DNA of 64,000 nt from Erinaceus europaeus. Its lineage: Eukaryota; Chordata; Mammalia; Eulipotyphla; Erinaceidae. This document shows, one piece after another, positions 1 to 36,318 of the stretch. Each line of letters starts with the position of its first letter. The first letter of the stretch is position 1. The position numbers and the translations under genes were made by a program. The notes beneath the pieces are model-generated. The model was given only the letters and a program-made list of their open reading frames with translations. It was not told the origin of the DNA and did not search any database. The DNA lies in contig NC_080176.1 in assembly GCF_950295315.1 (NCBI RefSeq), positions 29,412,924 to 29,476,923 of the forward strand, written 5' to 3'.

Positions 1-680
1 GCAGGGGTCTGTGATGAGGTGTTTGTTCTTTACCTCAGCTGACTGCCAACTCTGTTTCCAAGAGTCTGGAACAGAGAAGTTCAGTGTAGGCGTAGGGGAC
101 CAGATTGGGTGACGAGACATCAAGCATTGGACAGGGTGGGCAAAGATATCCGTGTATATTGGCAGGTCCGGTCGAGCGTAGACGTGGGAAATGAACTTAG
201 ATGATGCCGCATCCCGACGAATATCTGGCGGGGCGATGTTGCTAAGAACTGGCAGCCATGGAACCGGGGTGGGACGGATGGTTCCAGAAATTATCCTCAT
301 GGAGGAATATAATTTGGAATTGACCAAGTGGACATGGGGCTACGGAACCATACTGGGGCACAGTATTCTGCAGTGGAATAGCATAATGCCAGAGATGATG
401 ATCGTAGTGTGGAAGCGCTCGCGCCCCATGAGGAGCTGGCCAGTCTTGCAATGATGTGATTCCTTGCGCCCACCTTTGCTGCAGTTTTTATGAGATGTTT
501 GTGAAATGACAGAGTGTGATCGAGAGTAACGCCAAGATAGACTGTCTGGGCTTCATGCCGGATTCTCGTATCGCCAAGCTGCACATTAAGCTCACGTGAG
601 GCCGAGGCATGGTGTAGATGGAAAACAGATGATACCGTTTTTGCAGTGCTAGGGATTAGTCACCATTTTTTACAGTAACC
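1..680 (-). mobile_element. RTE/Jockey-like non-LTR element, copy 1 (5'-truncated, antisense)
   Basis: The reverse complement aligns colinearly with about 35200-35881 of the near-full-length copy at 33068-36150, covering the end of the RT domain and the start of the C-terminal region; the 3' part lies beyond the left edge of the window. On the minus strand 297-584 carries the same block as 35280-35540, including the LGVTLDHTLSFHKH stretch. It keeps the AG that copy 3 lost at about 35526 but has lost a C near 340 that shifts the frame. It abuts L1 A ORF2 at 677-686, which suggests insertion into that L1. No target duplication can be judged because only one end is visible. Confidence 0.85.
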
Positions 681-883
681 AATATCTCTGATGAACATAG
701 ATGCCAAAATATTAAACAAGATTCTGGCCAACCAGATATAGCAGTATATCAAAAAGATTGTTCATCATAACCAAGCGGGATTTATCCCAGGAATGCAAGG
801 CTGGTTCAACATACATAAGTCAATCAATGTCATTCACCATATCAATAAAAGCAAAACCAAACACCACATGATTATCTCAATAG

Positions 884-1294
884 ATGCAGAGAAAGCCTTT
901 GACAAAATCCAACACCTATTCATGCTCAAAACACAACAAAAAAATGGGAATAGATGGGAAATTCCTCAAGATAGTGGAGTCCATATATAGCAAACCTACA
1001 GCCAACATCATACTCAATGGACAGAAGCTGAAAACATTCCCCCTTAGATCAGGGACTAGACAGGGCTGTCCATTATCACCATTACTCTTCAACATAGTAT
1101 TGGAAGTTCTTGCTATAGCAAATAGGCAAGAGAAAGAAATCAAAGGAATACAGATTGGAAGGGAAGAAGTCAAGCTCTCACTATTTGCAGATGATATGAT
1201 AGTGTACATAGAAAAACTTAAAGAATCCAGCAGAAAATTACTGGAAGTTGTTAGGCAATATAGCAAGATGTCAGGCTACAAAATCAGTGTATAA
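884..1294 (+). pseudogene. L1 A ORF2 reverse-transcriptase fragment
   Basis: This 136-residue frame contains RT palm motifs: [17 protein letters not shown] followed by [10 protein letters not shown], where FADD is the catalytic YxDD-type box. It is flanked by frameshifts: the upstream fingers part (from 793, with [14 protein letters not shown]) lies in another frame, and downstream reading stops at 1292. It is a dead fragment of an L1 reverse transcriptase. Confidence 0.88.
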
Positions 1295-1525
1295 ACATCA
1301 GTGGCATTCCTTTATGCAAACATCAAATCTGAAGAAGAAGACATCCAGAAATCACTCCCATTCACGGTTGCAGCAAAATCAATAAAATACCTAGGAATAA
1401 AGCTGACCAAAGAAGTGAAAGATTTGTATACTGAAAACTATGAGTCATTATTCAAGGAAATAGAAAATACCAAGAAATAGAAATACATCCCATGCTCATG
1501 GGTTGGAAGAATAAACATCATCAAA

Positions 1526-2598
1526 ATGAATATTCTCCCCAGGGCCATATACAAATTTAATGCGATGCCCATCAAAGTTCCACCAAGCTTCTTTAAGAGA
1601 ATAGAACAAAAACTACAATCATTTATCTGGAACCAGAAAATACCTAGAATTGCCAAAAGAATCTTGAGGAAAAGAAACAGAAATGGAGGCATCACACTCC
1701 CAGATCTCAAACTATACTATAAGACCATCATCATCAAAACAGCCCGGTACTGGAACAAAAATAGGCACACAGATCAGTGGAACTGAACTGAAAGCCCAGA
1801 ACTAAACCCCCACACCTATGGACATCTAATATTTGATGAGGGGCCCCAAAGTATTAAATGGAGGAAGAAGGCTCTCTTCAATAAATGGTGCTGGGGAAAC
1901 TGGGTTAAAACATGCAGAAGAATGAAACTGAACCACCTTATCTCACCAGAAACAAAAATCAATTCCAAATGGATCAAGGACATGGATGTTAGACCAGAAA
2001 CTATCAAATACTTAGAGGAAAACATTGGTGGAACACTTTTCCACCTAAACCTCAAGGACATCTTTGATGAAACAAACCCAATTTCAAAGAAGACTAAAGC
2101 GGAAACAAACCAATGGGACTACATCAAATTGAAAAGCTTCTGCACAGCTAAAGAAACTACCACACAAACAAAGAGACCCCTCACAGAATGGGAGAAGACC
2201 TTTACATGCCATACATCAGACAAGAGACTAATCACCAAAATATACAAAGAGCTCAGCAAACTTAGCAATAAAAAAGCAAATGACCGCATCCAAAACTGGG
2301 CAGAGGATATGAACAGAACATTCACTACAGAAGAGATCCAAAAGCCTAACAAACACATGAAAACTTGCTCCACATGAAAACTTGCTGATTGTCAGAGAAA
2401 TGCAAATAAAGACAACAATGAGATAGCACCTCACCCATTTGAGAATGGCGTACATCAAAAAGGACAGCAGCAACAAATGCTGGAGAGGCTGTGGGGACAT
2501 AGGAACACTTCCGCACTGCTGGTGGGAATGCAAACTGGTCCAGCCTCTGTGGAGAGCAGTCTGGAGAACTCTCACAAGGCTAGATAGACATGGACCTT
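1526..2598 (+). pseudogene. L1 A ORF2 C-terminal fragments
   Basis: Two frames (1526-1786 and 1922-2377) carry the conserved post-RT region of L1 ORF2: the [13 protein letters not shown] block, IWNQK.PRIAK, the [13 protein letters not shown] block, then WIKDMDVRPETIKYLEENIGG. The Cys-rich terminal motif is degraded at about 2470-2530. Stops at 1785 and 2376 plus frame changes make it non-functional. Confidence 0.85.
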
Positions 2599-3469
2599 CC
2601 ATATGACCCAGTAATTCTTCTCCTAGGGATATATCCTAAGGACTCCATAATACCCAACCAAAAAGAAATGTGTACACCTACGTTCATAGCAGCACAATTT
2701 GTAATAGCTAAAACTTGGAAACAATCCAGGTGCCCAACAACATATGAGTGGCTGAGAAAGTTGTGGTATATATACACAATGGAATATTATGCAGCTATTA
2801 AGAACAGTGAACCCACCTTCTCTAACCCATCTTGGATGGAGCTAGAAGGAATTATGTTAAGTGAGATAAGTCAGAAAGATAAAGATGAGTATGGGATAAT
2901 CCCACTCATAAACAGAAGTTGAGAAAGAATAACAGAAAGGGAAACTCAAAGCAGGATTTGACTAAATTTGGAGTAGGGCACCAAAGTAAAAACCCTGGGG
3001 TGAGGATGAGGGTGGATATTCAGCTTTACAGGTTGGGGAGATGGGGGAGGGGAAGGGGGGGTGGGATGGGACATAGTCTTTTTGTGGTGGGAATGGTGTT
3101 TATGTACATTCCAATCAATTTGGAAATACCTAGAATTGCCAAATTGATTGAATTGCCAAATTGATTGAATGTCTCAAACTTTTTAAAATCACCGACTGAG
3201 TCTTTTTAATACATAGGCTGAGTCTTTGATATGTTGAGTCTTTGATATGTTGAGTCTCTTAAAAGCTTAGTCCAGGGAGAACAAAAGCAACTGGTGGCAT
3301 AGCTATATCTAAATAATGTCAAAGGACATAAAGTGTTGTGATGGTGTGTATGTTACAGCAAATCCTAACAGGAATTTTTCAAAGTTAACCCAACAAGTAT
3401 AAATATTGGAGAAATGAACCCTGGTTCATAAGAGTCCAGCTAAAAGCCCCCCAAAGGGTGAAGCACAAA

Positions 3470-14104: not shown

Positions 14105-14776
14105 GGGGCATTATGCTATTCCACTGCAGAATACTGTGCCCCAGTATGGTTCCGTAGCCCCCATGTCCACTTGGTCGATTCCAAATTATACTCCTCCATG
14201 AGGATAATTTCTGGAACCATCCGTTCCACCCCGGTTCCATGGCTGCCAGTTCTTAACAACATCGCCCCGCCAGATATTCGTCGGGATGCGGCATCATCTA
14301 AGTTCATTTCCCACGTCTACGCTCGACCAGACCTGCCAATATACGCGGATATCTTCGCCCACCCTGTTCAACGCTTGACGTCTCGTCATCCAATCTGGTC
14401 CCCTCCGCCTACACTGAACTTCTCTGTTCCAGTCTCTTGGAAACAGAGTTGGCAGTCAGCTGAGGTAAAGAACAAACACCTCATCACAGACCCCTGCAAG
14501 CGTCAACCCGGCTTTGACCTAGCACGTTATGATTGGGCCCTCCTCAATCGCTATCGAACAGGCCATGGCCGGTGTGCCGCTATGTTCCATCGCTGGGGAG
14601 CCAGAGACGACCCGAACTGCCCCTGCGGCTCCAGACAGACTATGACCCACATAGTCAACGACTGCCACCTCTCCAGATTCAAAGGAGGTCTCGAAACTTT
14701 ACATCAGGCTCAACCTGATGCTGTTGAAAGAAGGGCAAATGCTAGAAGAAGAAGAAAAGTGGGGACAATATTGTGA
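14105..14776 (+). pseudogene. C-terminal fragment of the element's polyprotein, open frame
   Basis: The frame is open from the truncation point to a stop at 14774-14776 and carries the post-RT region: AEYCAPVWFRSPHVHLVDSK, SWKQSWQSAEVKNKHLITDP, then NCPCGSRQTMTHIVNDCHLS, a C-x-C-x7-H-x4-C block, and FKGGLETLHQAQPDAV. The last residues differ from copy 3 because the 10-bp loss shifts the frame. The ATG at 14003 lies in unrelated upstream DNA, so no translated product is implied. Confidence 0.85.
14107..14757 (+). mobile_element. RTE/Jockey-like non-LTR element, copy 2 (5'-truncated)
   Basis: It matches 35495-36150 of the near-full-length copy; by my reading about 17 substitutions and one single-base gap in about 620 aligned bases, plus loss of about 10 bp (CTGGCTACGG) at 14726. 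The 3' end is GCTAGAAGAAGAAGAAA, the same AGA-trinucleotide tail. AGTGGGG at 14102-14108 and 14758-14764 is a candidate 7-bp target duplication, partly overlapping the element start, far shorter than that of copy 3. Confidence 0.92.
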
Positions 14777-30227: not shown

Positions 30228-30593
30228 TCTTTTATTTATTTATTTATTTAGCTGTTGACTGGCTACGGAAGAAGGGCAAATGCTAGAAGAAGAAGAAGTG
30301 CCTCTAGGCTAATAGCTGGGGATTGGTGCCTGCACATGAATCCATGACACAGCTCCTGGAGGTCATTTTTTCCTATTTTGTTGCCTTGTTGTTGTTATTA
30401 TTATTGTTGTCATTGATGTTGTTGTATAGGACAGAGAGAAATGGAGAGAGAAAGGGAGGTGGGGGGAGGGAAAGACAGACACCTGTAGATTCCCTTGCAG
30501 GTGAGGAGCCCGGGGCTCGAACCAGGATCCTTAGCCGGTCCTTGCACTTTGTGCCATGTGCACTTAACCCACTGCACTACTACCGTCTGACCC
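30228..30593 (-). mobile_element. SINE-B interrupted in its tail by element stub
   Basis: (TTTA)n tail at 30231-30250, then a 48-bp insertion (30251-30298), then the terminal block CTAGGCTAATAGCTGGGGATTGG, TTGTTGTT region, body and the head complement CTACTACCGTCTGACCCCC. Confidence 0.88.
30251..30298 (+). mobile_element. RTE/Jockey-like element, 48-bp 3' stub (copy 4)
   Basis: GCTGTTGACTGGCTACGGAA and the rest are colinear with 36104-36150 of copy 3, differing at the C/T of AAAYGCTAG, and end in TAGAAGAAGAAGAAG. It marks the precise 3' terminus used by the element and shows extreme 5' truncation. Confidence 0.9.
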
Positions 30594-32899: not shown

Positions 32900-33067
32900 A
32901 CCTTAAAGCACACAGAGGTGGTGCCAAGGCTGGGGAGGGCAGTGCCTTTTCTCCTCAGTGGAGGGAAACAGAGAACGCCAAGGCCACGTGCAGAGCATCT
33001 CTGGCCTTGAGGGTCTGTGCAGGTAGCCTTTCAGAGTCAGTGAAAGGTTTACTGTAGATAATTTGGA
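32900..33067. repeat. 168-bp direct repeat, left copy (target-site duplication of the element)
   Basis: It is identical to 36151-36318 except for four substitutions by my count. Both copies start ACCTTAAAGCACACAGAGGT and end GATAATTTGGA, and they bracket the element exactly (5' end at 33068, AGA tail ending at 36150). The simplest reading is a very long target-site duplication made on insertion. Confidence 0.9.
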
Positions 33068-33155
33068 ATGCAATGGATCGACCTTCTCGTGGTGCATCCC
33101 GTGAGTACCCATTCATTGGGGAAACTGACGATCCTTCCTAGCCGACTGAATCCAC

Positions 33156-34223
33156 ATGGATCCCAGTCACTTTCAAAGCCAGCAACAAGCAGCTCCTGCC
33201 AGCTTTCAAGCTGTTGGTCCTGCTCTTCGAGTCCTCCAACTTAATGTTGAGGGGCTGTCCGCTGCCAAACGCGTTCTTATTGGTCAATTGGCGATACAGC
33301 ATCAGGCAGATGTTATCTGCCTACAAGAAACACATATAGCAGTCGATGAAGCTGCTCGATTCACCATCAGTGGATTCGATTTAATATGCTGTAATCTCCA
33401 TCATAAACACGGCCGAGCCATCTACGCCAAATCGTGTCTTGCGGACGTTTTCCATACGGCCTCTTCGACGTTCTACGACTCCATTACTGTTGGAACTATT
33501 CAGCTCGTCAACGTATATAAGCCTCCCAGTGCCTCATGGGATAACGAGGTCCTGCCTAGCCCGAATCACCCAGCCGTTTATGTTGGAGACTTTAATAGTC
33601 ATCACCAAGACTGGGGATATTCCTCCACTCGTGCTGACGGCTCTATCTTAGCCGACTGGGCTTCAGCGAATGACCTCTCCCTATTATACGATCCCAAACA
33701 ACCAGGCTCTTTTCACAGTGCTAGATGGAATAAAGACTTGTCACCCGACCTATGCTGGATTAGCACAGTCAACGGCCAAGCCTTTCCCGCTACGAGACAA
33801 GTTCTCAAGATCTTCCCGCACAGTCATCACCGCCCAGTTATCATCCACATTGGTCTCCAGCTCCCACTGATTCTGTGCTCGGAGAAACTAAGATGGAACT
33901 TTCGGAAAGCAAACTGGCGTCTGTTCAGTGATCTTACCAACAAATCTATTCCTGTAATTCCAATTAACTCTATCCCCTCTGAAGATTCCTACAGGCGCTT
34001 CCACCAAGCCATCTTCAAAGCAGCTTCCCAAGCCATTCCTCGTGGGAGACGTGCTAACTATACGCCTTGTCTTGATGCTGAATGCGAGCAACTACTAAAG
34101 CAGTATGATGAGTCGGGCGACCCAGATGTGGCTGACCATCTCATTACCTCCCTGGATGCAGCACGCCAAGCCCGCTGGCAACAACTCATGGAAAGTCTGA
34201 ACTTCACCCACTCAAGTAAGTAG
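33156..34223 (+). pseudogene. Endonuclease domain of the element's polyprotein
   Basis: The 355-residue frame starts MDPSHFQSQQ and has APE-endonuclease motifs in order: LQLNVEGLSAAK (about 24-35), VICLQETHIAVD (53-64), LVNVYKPPSASW (117-128), VGDFNSHHQDWG (143-154, GDFN at 33585-33596), DLCWIS (199-204) and SHHRPVII (223-230). The last should read SDH; the aspartate at residue 224 is histidine, so catalysis would probably be lost. Residues 235-350 are linker. A small insertion around 34215-34222 (GTAAGTAGG) brings a stop and shifts the frame before the RT. The product would nick target DNA to prime reverse transcription. Confidence 0.9.
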
Positions 34224-34224
34224 G

Positions 34225-35526
34225 AAGGCCTGGAAGCTTCTTCACAGACTGGGTGCCGGTAGCCAACCCCCTCCCGTCTCCCATCCTCCTGTATCTCCAA
34301 ACTCAGTGGCCAGTCACCTAACTCAAGTTGGACGTGCTAAGATCGACCCAGTCTGGAAAAGAGAAATTTCCCATGAGTGGTCATCCCACTTCCGGTTATC
34401 TTGTCCATCTCCAAAACTCTCTCCCTTTACACTGTCTGAACTAGAAGACGCTTTGAAGAGGGTTAAACCGGGAACAGCTGCTGGCTATGATAACATCACC
34501 CCAGAACTCATTCTTAACCTGGGCCCCGTGGCAAAGAAGTGGCTCGCTTCATTCCTGTCCCACATCTTGGAATCTGAGTCTATGCCCAAAGTTTGGCGTC
34601 GTGCGAAGATCATAGCGGTTTTGAAACCAAAGAAAGACCCAACACTGGCTGCCAGCTATAGACCAATTTCTCTCCTCTCCGTGTGTTACAAACTCCTTGA
34701 GAGGCTGCTTCTATCACGTATTTCTCATCTTACAGAGAAATTCCTATCACCTACCCAGGCTGGTTTCCGCCCAGGAAGATCTACCTGCGAACAAGCCCTG
34801 GCCCTCTCAACTTATATTGAAAATGGATTCCAGAAGAATTTAAAGACGGGTGCTGTCTTTGTTGATCTCACAGCAGCCTATGACACGGTCTGGCACCGTG
34901 GTCTCCTGGAAAAGATCTCAAGATGCCTGCCTCCATGGGTGGCCAACACTATATAGTTTCTTCTCCAAAACAGAAGATTCCGGGTAAATCTGGGTGACAA
35001 GTCTAGCAGATGGAGACTTGTCTCAAGTGGCCTCCCCCAGGGCTCTGTTCTGGCTCCTACGCTATTTAATATTTACATCAATGACCTCCCAGAAACCTCT
35101 TGAAGGAAGTTCATCTACGCCGATGACATCTGCTGTGCAACTCAGGCATCAAAGTTCGACATCCTCGAGGAAACACTCACGAAAGACATGTCTCTGATAT
35201 CTGATTACTGTAAAAAATGGCGACTAATCCCTAGCACTGCTAAAACGGTATCATCTGTTTTCCATCTACACCATGCCTCGGCCTCGCATGAGCTTAATGT
35301 GCAGCTTGGCGATACGAGAATCCGGCATGAAGCCCAGACAGTCTATCTTGGCGTTACTCTCGATCACACTCTGTCATTTCACAAACATCCCATAAAAACT
35401 GCAGCAAAGGTGGGCGCGAGGAATCACGTCATTGCAAGACTGGCCAGCTCCTCATGGGGCGCGAGCGCTTCCACACTACGATCATCATCTCTGGCATTAT
35501 GCTATTCCACTGCAGAATACTGTGCC
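34225..35526 (+). pseudogene. Reverse-transcriptase domain of the element's polyprotein
   Basis: In frame 1 the RT motifs follow in order: GTAAGYDNITPELIL, LKPKKDPTLAASYRPISLLS, TQAGFRPGRSTCEQAL, VFVDLTAAYDTVWH (aspartates at 34864 and 34882), [11 protein letters not shown] (35026-35058), IYADDIC with catalytic YADD at 35116-35127, and YLGVTLD. Two in-frame stops break it: TAG at 34954-34956 and TGA at 35101-35103, the latter possibly an Arg codon lost by CpG decay. Catalytic residues themselves are intact. Confidence 0.9.
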
Positions 35527-36140
35527 CCGTATGGTTCCGTAGCCCCCATGTCCACTTGGTCGATTCCAAATTATATTCCTCCATGAGGATAATTTCTGGA
35601 ACCATCCATTCCACCCCGGTTCCATGGCTGCCAGTTCTTAGCAACATCGCCCCACCAGATATTCGTCGGGATGCGGCATCATCTAAGTTCATTTCCCACG
35701 TCTACGCTCGACCGGACCTGCCAATATACGCGGATATCTTCGCCCACCCTGTCCAACGCTTGACGTCTCGTCACCCAATTTGGTCCCCTACGCCTTCACT
35801 GAACTTCTCTGTTCCAGTCTCTTGGAAACAGAGCTGGCAGTCAGCTGAGGTAAAGAACAAACACCTCATCACAGACCCCTGCAAGCGTCAACCCGGCTTT
35901 GACCTAGCACGTTATGACTGGGCCCTCCTCAATCGCTATCGAACAGGCCATGGCCGGTGCGCCGCTATGTTCCATCACTGGGGAGCCAGAGACGACCTGA
36001 ACTGCCCCTGCAGCTTCAGACAGACTATGACCCACATAGTCAACGACTGCCACCTCTCCAGATTCAAAGGAGGTCTCGAAACTTTACATCAGGCTCAACC
36101 TGATGCTGTTGACTGGCTACGGAAGAAGGGCAAACGCTAG
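35454..36140 (+). pseudogene. C-terminal region of the element's polyprotein
   Basis: One base is missing at about 35526 (CCCCGTATGG against CCCCAGTATGG in copies 1 and 2), so the polyprotein moves from frame 1 to this frame. After the shift it carries PVWFRSPHVHLVDSK, RRDAASSKFISHVYARPD, SWKQSWQSAEVKNKHLITDP, YRTGHGRCAAMFH, NCPCSFRQTMTHIVNDCHLS (C-x-C ... H-x4-C) and FKGGLETLHQAQPDAVDWLR, ending KKGKR just before the AGA tail. The Cys/His block may bind nucleic acid; in copy 2 it has CG where this copy has CS. Confidence 0.9.
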
Positions 36141-36150
36141 AAGAAGAAGA
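36138..36150 (+). terminator. Element 3' terminus: stop codon merged with AGA tail
   Basis: TAGAAGAAGAAGA: the stop codon is the first base triplet of the trinucleotide tail. Copies at 14743-14757 and 30284-30298 end the same way, so the tail is a family feature. RTE-type elements often end in short simple repeats in place of poly(A). Confidence 0.85.
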
Positions 36151-36318
36151 ACCTTAAAGCACACAGAGGTGGTGCCAAGGCTGGGGAGGGCAGTGTCTTT
36201 TCTCCTCAGTGGAGGGAAACAGAGAACGCCAAGGCCACCTGCAGAGCATCTCTGGCCTTGAGGGTCTGTGCAGGTAGCCTTTCAGAGTCAATGAAAGGTC
36301 TACTGTAGATAATTTGGA
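36151..36318. repeat. 168-bp direct repeat, right copy
   Basis: Right partner of 32900-33067, starting directly after the AGA tail. Four substitutions separate the copies, roughly 2.4%, similar to the divergence between element copies. Confidence 0.9.

Follow-up and report, generated by a model that had tools for sequence, protein, structure and literature searches.

A predicted HDV-like ribozyme at the 5′ end of a young Vingi-type retrotransposon family, and of its miniature derivatives, in the hedgehog Erinaceus europaeus

Self-cleaving ribozymes resembling that of hepatitis delta virus (HDV) are on record at the 5′ ends of retrotransposons, and these provide the closest described systems to the one considered here. 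The L1Tc/ingi elements of trypanosomatids begin with an HDV-like ribozyme, Pr77, that cleaves 5′ of position +1, and they have short non-autonomous partners (PMC4035085); these are elements of protist hosts, in which Pr77 doubles as a promoter (PMC4748587, PMC8190864). In R2, an HDV-like ribozyme likewise sets the 5′ end (PMC3774820), and the short internally deleted elements (SIDEs) of Drosophila R2 consist of the 5′ ribozyme and the 3′ end (PMC3414825). Mammalian genomes carry an HDV-like fold as well, the CPEB3 ribozyme, which sits in the intron of a single gene and not in a mobile element (PMC4908430, PMC8256844). Here we examine a stretch of 64,000 nucleotides (nt) from the hedgehog Erinaceus europaeus, hereafter the window, which holds a complete non-long terminal repeat (non-LTR) retrotransposon of 3,083 bp that fits the hedgehog Vingi family of long interspersed nuclear elements (LINEs), of Vingi-1_EE type. 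As a whole, the locus is best explained, and to our mind with good probability, as a dead Vingi copy of a kind whose RNA 5′ end would be made by an HDV-like ribozyme acting in cis. The LINE family itself is already known; what appears to be new is the predicted ribozyme at its 5′ end.

The candidate fold comprises the three bases directly before the element and about 67 nt of the element itself, and occupies the following positions in the window.

33065..33134, + strand: predicted HDV-like ribozyme fold (RF00094 match below the gathering score; descriptor match)
33065-33071/33094-33100, + strand: P1, predicted pairing
33075-33080/33129-33134, + strand: P2, predicted pairing
33081-33083/33091-33093, + strand: P3, predicted pairing; the loop L3 is 33084-33090
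33108-33111/33117-33120, + strand: P4, predicted pairing
33125, + strand: predicted catalytic C, in the motif C-T-G-A

Where GGG heads the element, GGGATGC can pair with GCATCYC as P1, GGATCG with CGATCC as P2 and ACC with GGT as P3, leaving the loop TTCYCGT, and a further hairpin can form as P4; the possible pairings P1, P2, P3 and P4 of this predicted fold follow the canonical pseudoknotted order. The catalytic C in J4/2 of HDV-like ribozymes is marked by a C-N-R-A motif, and in the element C-T-G-A precedes the return strand of P2; the arrangement as a whole is that of HDV-like ribozymes.

The first 933 bases of the element were used as query against the 2.72-Gb genome, and the best 40 of 2,502 first-look candidates were scored, all of them sharing 97–100% identity with the query. 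The 39 copies besides that of the window were fetched: 27 are full length, eight have an inverted 5′ part, two are internally deleted and two are partial matches. GGG directly precedes the element in 23 of the 40 copies, always at the same place; all 20 pairs together with C-N-R-A are retained in 19 copies, every one of them among these 23. The CTGA with the predicted catalytic C is intact throughout (40/40), and L3 retains a G before its last base in 38. The headed form is also abundant genome-wide, in that GGG stands before 4,065 of the 4,887 places that match the next 31 bases exactly, a count covering the 5′ half of the fold only, and backward-pattern controls gave 0. The fold coincides with the 5′ boundary of the element, the predicted cut falling directly before GGG. 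Copies with an inverted 5′ part offer a separate view of these three bases, as their element base 1 lies at an inner junction whose neighbour is other complementary DNA (cDNA) of the element and not the target. The inner junction reads GGG in five of the eight, which speaks for GGG belonging to the element RNA; microhomology may supply part of it.

A strict descriptor of the fold (seven of seven P1 pairs with G-U allowed, P2, P3, L3, P4 and C-N-R-A) matches 18 of the 40 copies. Each of these matches places the predicted cut at the first G ahead of the element, and the 424,044 strand-bases scanned hold no other match; when both strands of 35 dinucleotide-shuffled versions of the window were scanned, two sites came up. 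With P4 kept and one P1 mismatch allowed, 21 copies and one other place match, and under a looser descriptor 33065..33134 is the sole match on either window strand. Among these forms we rely on the strict one alone. RF00094, the Rfam family called after the viral ribozyme, has the top bit score at the element 5′ end in each of three stretches tried singly, those of the window copy (21.1 bits, E 0.45) and of two relatives, L029 (27.8 bits, E 0.019) and L042 (24.0 bits, E 0.1). It also gives the highest bit score in ten of the ten miniature elements tried (of the 38 described below; 23.9–26.5 bits, E 0.74–2.4). Matches of the window copy, L029, L042 and the miniatures to other Rfam families were taken as chance. 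Folding free of pseudoknots yields a z of −2.95, with one of 200 shuffles as good; being blind to the double pseudoknot, this was not used as proof.

Several results count against a ribozyme. No RF00094 score reaches the family's gathering score, which is 50, an Rfam scan of five loci at the gathering level returned no match, and in one miniature, L049, another Rfam family is better by E-value (0.09 vs 0.75). The descriptor was composed after the candidate fold had been seen, and without P4 it is unspecific, matching 21 other places in the set of copies, most of them in one internal stretch on the opposite element strand, and 23 in 20 shuffled windows. In the window copy itself, the first three bases are GGA, a part of the duplicated target that is present in both repeats, and P1 consequently has one A-C mismatch, a kind of defect thought to weaken HDV-like ribozymes (PMC3774820). 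For P1.1, which has one or two pairs in HDV-like ribozymes (PMC4908430), inspection of the 5′ ends finds one possible G-C pair. Covariation is lacking, the sole two-sided pair change (pair 2-35, in two copies) falling in target-derived bases, because the copies are young and too alike. Nor is the ribozyme stretch more conserved than the open reading frame (ORF) among the copies (0.0191 vs 0.0182), as expected of copies that are mostly dead. Finally, neither set of sequences is random, the 40 copies having been taken for their closeness to the window copy and the 46 places introduced below for an exact 5′ pattern.

Could this then be an ordinary Vingi without a ribozyme, its GGG marking where transcription begins or having been added without template by the reverse transcriptase (RT), and its fold a chance match? 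Reverse transcriptases habitually make terminal additions, which would suit such an account, as do the sub-gathering Rfam scores and the missing covariation. We nevertheless consider it unlikely, since the strict descriptor is rare in shuffled windows yet falls exactly at the boundary, and since L1Tc/ingi, a lineage named as related, has an HDV-like ribozyme at the same place (PMC4035085). A literature search found no report of a ribozyme in Vingi or in the hedgehog, most subscription papers lying outside its reach.

The predicted ribozyme also heads a large class of miniature elements. The first 46 of 100 listed GGG-headed places were examined; they lie on one contig and match the 5′ half of the fold exactly, and 38 of them are miniatures of 157–197 nt (one of 361 nt), in which the first 114–149 nt of the element (179 in one) are fused to about its last 42–69 nt (179 in one). 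These 38 have the make-up of SIDEs, a 5′ predicted ribozyme fused to a LINE 3′ end and mostly flanked by short repeats, some of which are too short to be relied on. At least five junctions can be told apart (114|3042, 125|3019, 127|3015, 146|3028 and 179|2905); within the 146|3028 class, 19 miniatures show a mean difference of 2.7%. Element bases 1–67 are retained in all miniatures, although deletions beginning at base 32 or later would still have suited the search pattern; as the independent events number only about five, we regard this retention as moderate evidence. CTGA is intact in 42 of the 46 sampled 5′ ends, and all 20 pairs and C-N-R-A are present without gaps in 29, a proportion that is not a genome average.

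The loop and P1 differ somewhat between the two sets. The loop reads TTCTCGT in 32 of the 38 miniatures, and the return strand of P1 contains CCC in all 38; in the larger copies the loop reads TTCCCGT in 30 of 40, and more than half have T, giving a G-U pair, at the middle C of that strand. These differences mark two subfamilies of the predicted ribozyme.

Starting from what can be read off the letters (anatomy, the fit of the fold, the coincidence of cut and boundary, copy numbers, miniatures and target duplications), we infer catalysis, a promoter position and mobilization in trans along the following lines. Transcription from an upstream (or internal) promoter would give a read-through RNA, which would cut itself directly before GGG and so acquire the exact 5′ end of the element. 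The Vingi protein, with its apurinic/apyrimidinic endonuclease (APE) and RT, would then recognize the 3′ end, nick the target, prime on the (AAG)n tail and copy the RNA. Cleavage of the second strand, usually about 10 bp away, would leave a short duplication, and in the window copy one of 168 bp; sometimes a twin-primed 5′ inversion would result. RNAs that have lost their interior and keep the ribozyme with at least about the last 42 nt may be mobilized in trans as miniatures. If the ribozyme works, it would explain how transcription from many insertion sites can proceed with the exact 5′ end restored, and why the tiny derivatives kept just both ends.

We lean, with less assurance than toward the explanation as a whole, toward the claim that the HDV-like ribozyme at the head of this mammalian LINE family and of its miniatures is functional. 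If this is true, the ribozyme, with 4,065 GGG-headed exact copies of the 5′ half of its fold in the genome, would rank among the self-cleaving RNAs with the highest copy numbers in a mammal. The element would carry a portable device for making 5′ ends, which could also cut host transcripts where sense copies lie in introns or untranslated regions, and its thousands of mobile copies would let the action of self-cleaving RNAs in mammalian genes be studied as a natural experiment. A working ribozyme would further tie the hedgehog element mechanistically to the ribozymes of L1Tc/ingi, and as a character it could help to trace the source of the lineage. The likeness to R2 has its own bounds: R2 is site-specific in 28S ribosomal RNA genes, whereas Vingi copies lie on many contigs in varied sequences and their miniatures are numerous.

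The element that carries the predicted ribozyme is laid out as follows.

33068..36150, + strand: full-length Vingi-type non-LTR retrotransposon, a dead copy (profile searches; copy alignments)
33156..36140, + strand: single ORF, interrupted in the window copy by two frameshifts and two stop codons
33156..34223, + strand: APE-type endonuclease region (PF03372, PF14529)
34201..35586, + strand: RT region with YADD (PF00078 on 34201-34953)
35560..36140, + strand: C-terminal region with CxC...Hx4C and GGLETLH (from translations)
36138..36150, + strand: stop codon passing into the (AAG)n tail (from the sequence; similar in relatives)

Much of this had been outlined in a preliminary description drawn from the letters alone, and has held. 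Its boundaries agree with 27 of the 39 fetched copies, which align over roughly bases 1–3083. The APE endonuclease that it named is recovered by Pfam profiles (PF03372, E 1.4e-12; PF14529, E 6e-12), and so is the RT (PF00078, E 1.1e-17), with YADD legible in the translations and a further, weak RVT_1 match (E 0.04) on 35104-35583. The C-terminal motifs are equally legible, as CPC...HIVNDC and GGLETLH; no Pfam match was found in 35331-36137 up to E 10. Absence of ORF1 follows from the ATG at 33156, as the leader of 88 nt leaves no room for one, and the AGA-type tail in place of poly(A) is confirmed by TAG at 36138-36140, which abuts the AGAAGAAGAAGA tail directly. The claim of one polyprotein stands for the family and fails for this copy, in which open frames overlap at 34201-34223 and 35331-35586, reflecting two frame changes, and stop codons interrupt the frame at 34954 and 35101. 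The window copy is dead. Its CpG observed/expected ratio of 0.68 contrasts with 0.16 elsewhere in the window, where the highest of 109 other tiles reaches 0.31, as expected for any such young insertion.

That this is a young LINE outside L1, L2 and BovB, and as such odd in a mammal, was judged rightly. The further suggestion of an RTE-like or Jockey/RTE-like element finds no support: the order of the domains and the absence of ORF1 and of a recognizable RNase H fit Vingi instead. The Vingi clade was reportedly named from hedgehogs in 2011 by Kojima, Kapitonov and Jurka, who are said to have described a single ORF with APE and RT and without RNase H. The element agrees, with APE ahead of RT in a single ORF, no ORF1, and C-terminal pieces that yield no RNase H match at E-values up to 10 (a profile search alone, without a positive control). 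Internally deleted derivatives are present in the genome, as they would be for the Vingi of hedgehogs. In solved-structure searches, the best matches were R2 and L1 ORF2p for the RT and the bacterial catabolite repression control protein for the endonuclease, all too distant to be used for placement. The placement in Vingi rests on anatomy, context and literature. The compact single ORF, the lack of poly(A) and the short 3′ region would also suit RTE or Jockey; membership in either is nonetheless very improbable, given that the anatomy agrees with the description of Vingi just mentioned and that a young Vingi of hedgehogs, accompanied by non-autonomous families, has been published (PMC3183009). 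The clade has been reported in hedgehogs and reptiles (PMC5753468), and in Erinaceus europaeus Vingi-1N3_EE, with 311 copies, tops the families of less than 1% divergence (PMC3183009). Like the element, the Vingi-1_EE/Vingi-1N pair is a young LINE with APE and RT accompanied by non-autonomous derivatives; for that pair no mention of a ribozyme or of long target duplications was found in the accessible literature, in a comparison made by description and not letter by letter.

The low divergence noted at the outset is likewise borne out, the 28 full-length copies (the 27 fetched and that of the window) differing by 3.24% on average in pairwise comparison, and by 1.74% outside columns that could hold CpG. 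One of the 28 retains a stop-free stretch of 995 amino acids. The Vingi-type family of Erinaceus europaeus is thus young and multicopy. The eight 5′-inverted copies (L014, L017, L020, L021, L025, L026, L037 and L041) are as twin priming would give, and the three whose flanks both lie inside the fetched stretch (L020, L037, L041) carry short target duplications.

Two further observations concern the products of reverse transcription. In one of the partial matches, L044, element base 1508 is joined to the last bases of the 3′ end and then to a long (AAG)n run, which suggests that very little 3′ sequence may be needed. In L026, L031 and L041, the breakpoints of an inversion, a deletion and an inversion, respectively, coincide at element coordinates 1128-1131, where the reverse transcriptase may pause or jump.

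The flanks of the window copy are unusual in bearing long direct repeats.

32900..33067, + strand: left copy of the 168-bp target-site duplication (flank alignment, genome search)
36151..36318, + strand: right copy of the 168-bp target-site duplication (differs from the left copy at 4 of 168 positions)

These repeats abut both element ends exactly, and a genome search found two copies only, with no third. Among the 28 full-length copies, local alignment of 700-bp flanks finds a long repeat next to both element ends in no copy but that of the window; 23 of the 28 have short target duplications of 5–17 bp, the shortest of which may be chance, and a search for short ones found none in the remaining five (the window copy, L012, L023, L033 and L042). 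The 168-bp repeat is most likely an exceptional target-site duplication, and, being unique among the sampled copies, it makes the window insertion an outlier in the sample. Might the element instead have inserted into an older tandem duplication? The short duplications of the other copies would favour this; the repeats, however, stop exactly at both element boundaries and have no third genome copy, so that insertion precisely at the tandem junction would be needed, and we think such an origin improbable. If the repeat is a target duplication, its four differences in 168 bp amount to about 1.2% change per repeat since insertion, on the order of the family divergence, and they provide a clock that dates one insertion independently of the family.

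As to a foreign origin, which the preliminary description had raised, horizontal acquisition of the hedgehog Vingi is plausible, and the idea is already published: this Vingi is listed among "older likely horizontal transfers in mammals" (PMC3183009). Human, too, has a listed Vingi relic, X12_LINE, and a single pre-amniote fossil of Vingi has been reported there (PMC9004415). The clade was therefore once present in the mammalian line, which weighs against a simple view of Vingi as foreign to mammals and leaves room for loss elsewhere. Scans of viral contigs gave five and nine pattern matches, and a scan of prokaryote genomes 141, with no confirmed relative in either; neither bears on animal hosts. 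Vingi has been named in print as related to Ingi.

Other traces of the family lie elsewhere in the window.

14107..14755, + strand: 5′-truncated Vingi copy, with AGTGGGG on both sides
1..686, - strand: Vingi copy cut by the window edge (sequence match)
30251..30296, + strand: 46-bp fragment of a Vingi 3′ end (sequence match)

Past position 686, the sequence adjoining the minus-strand copy looks like L1.

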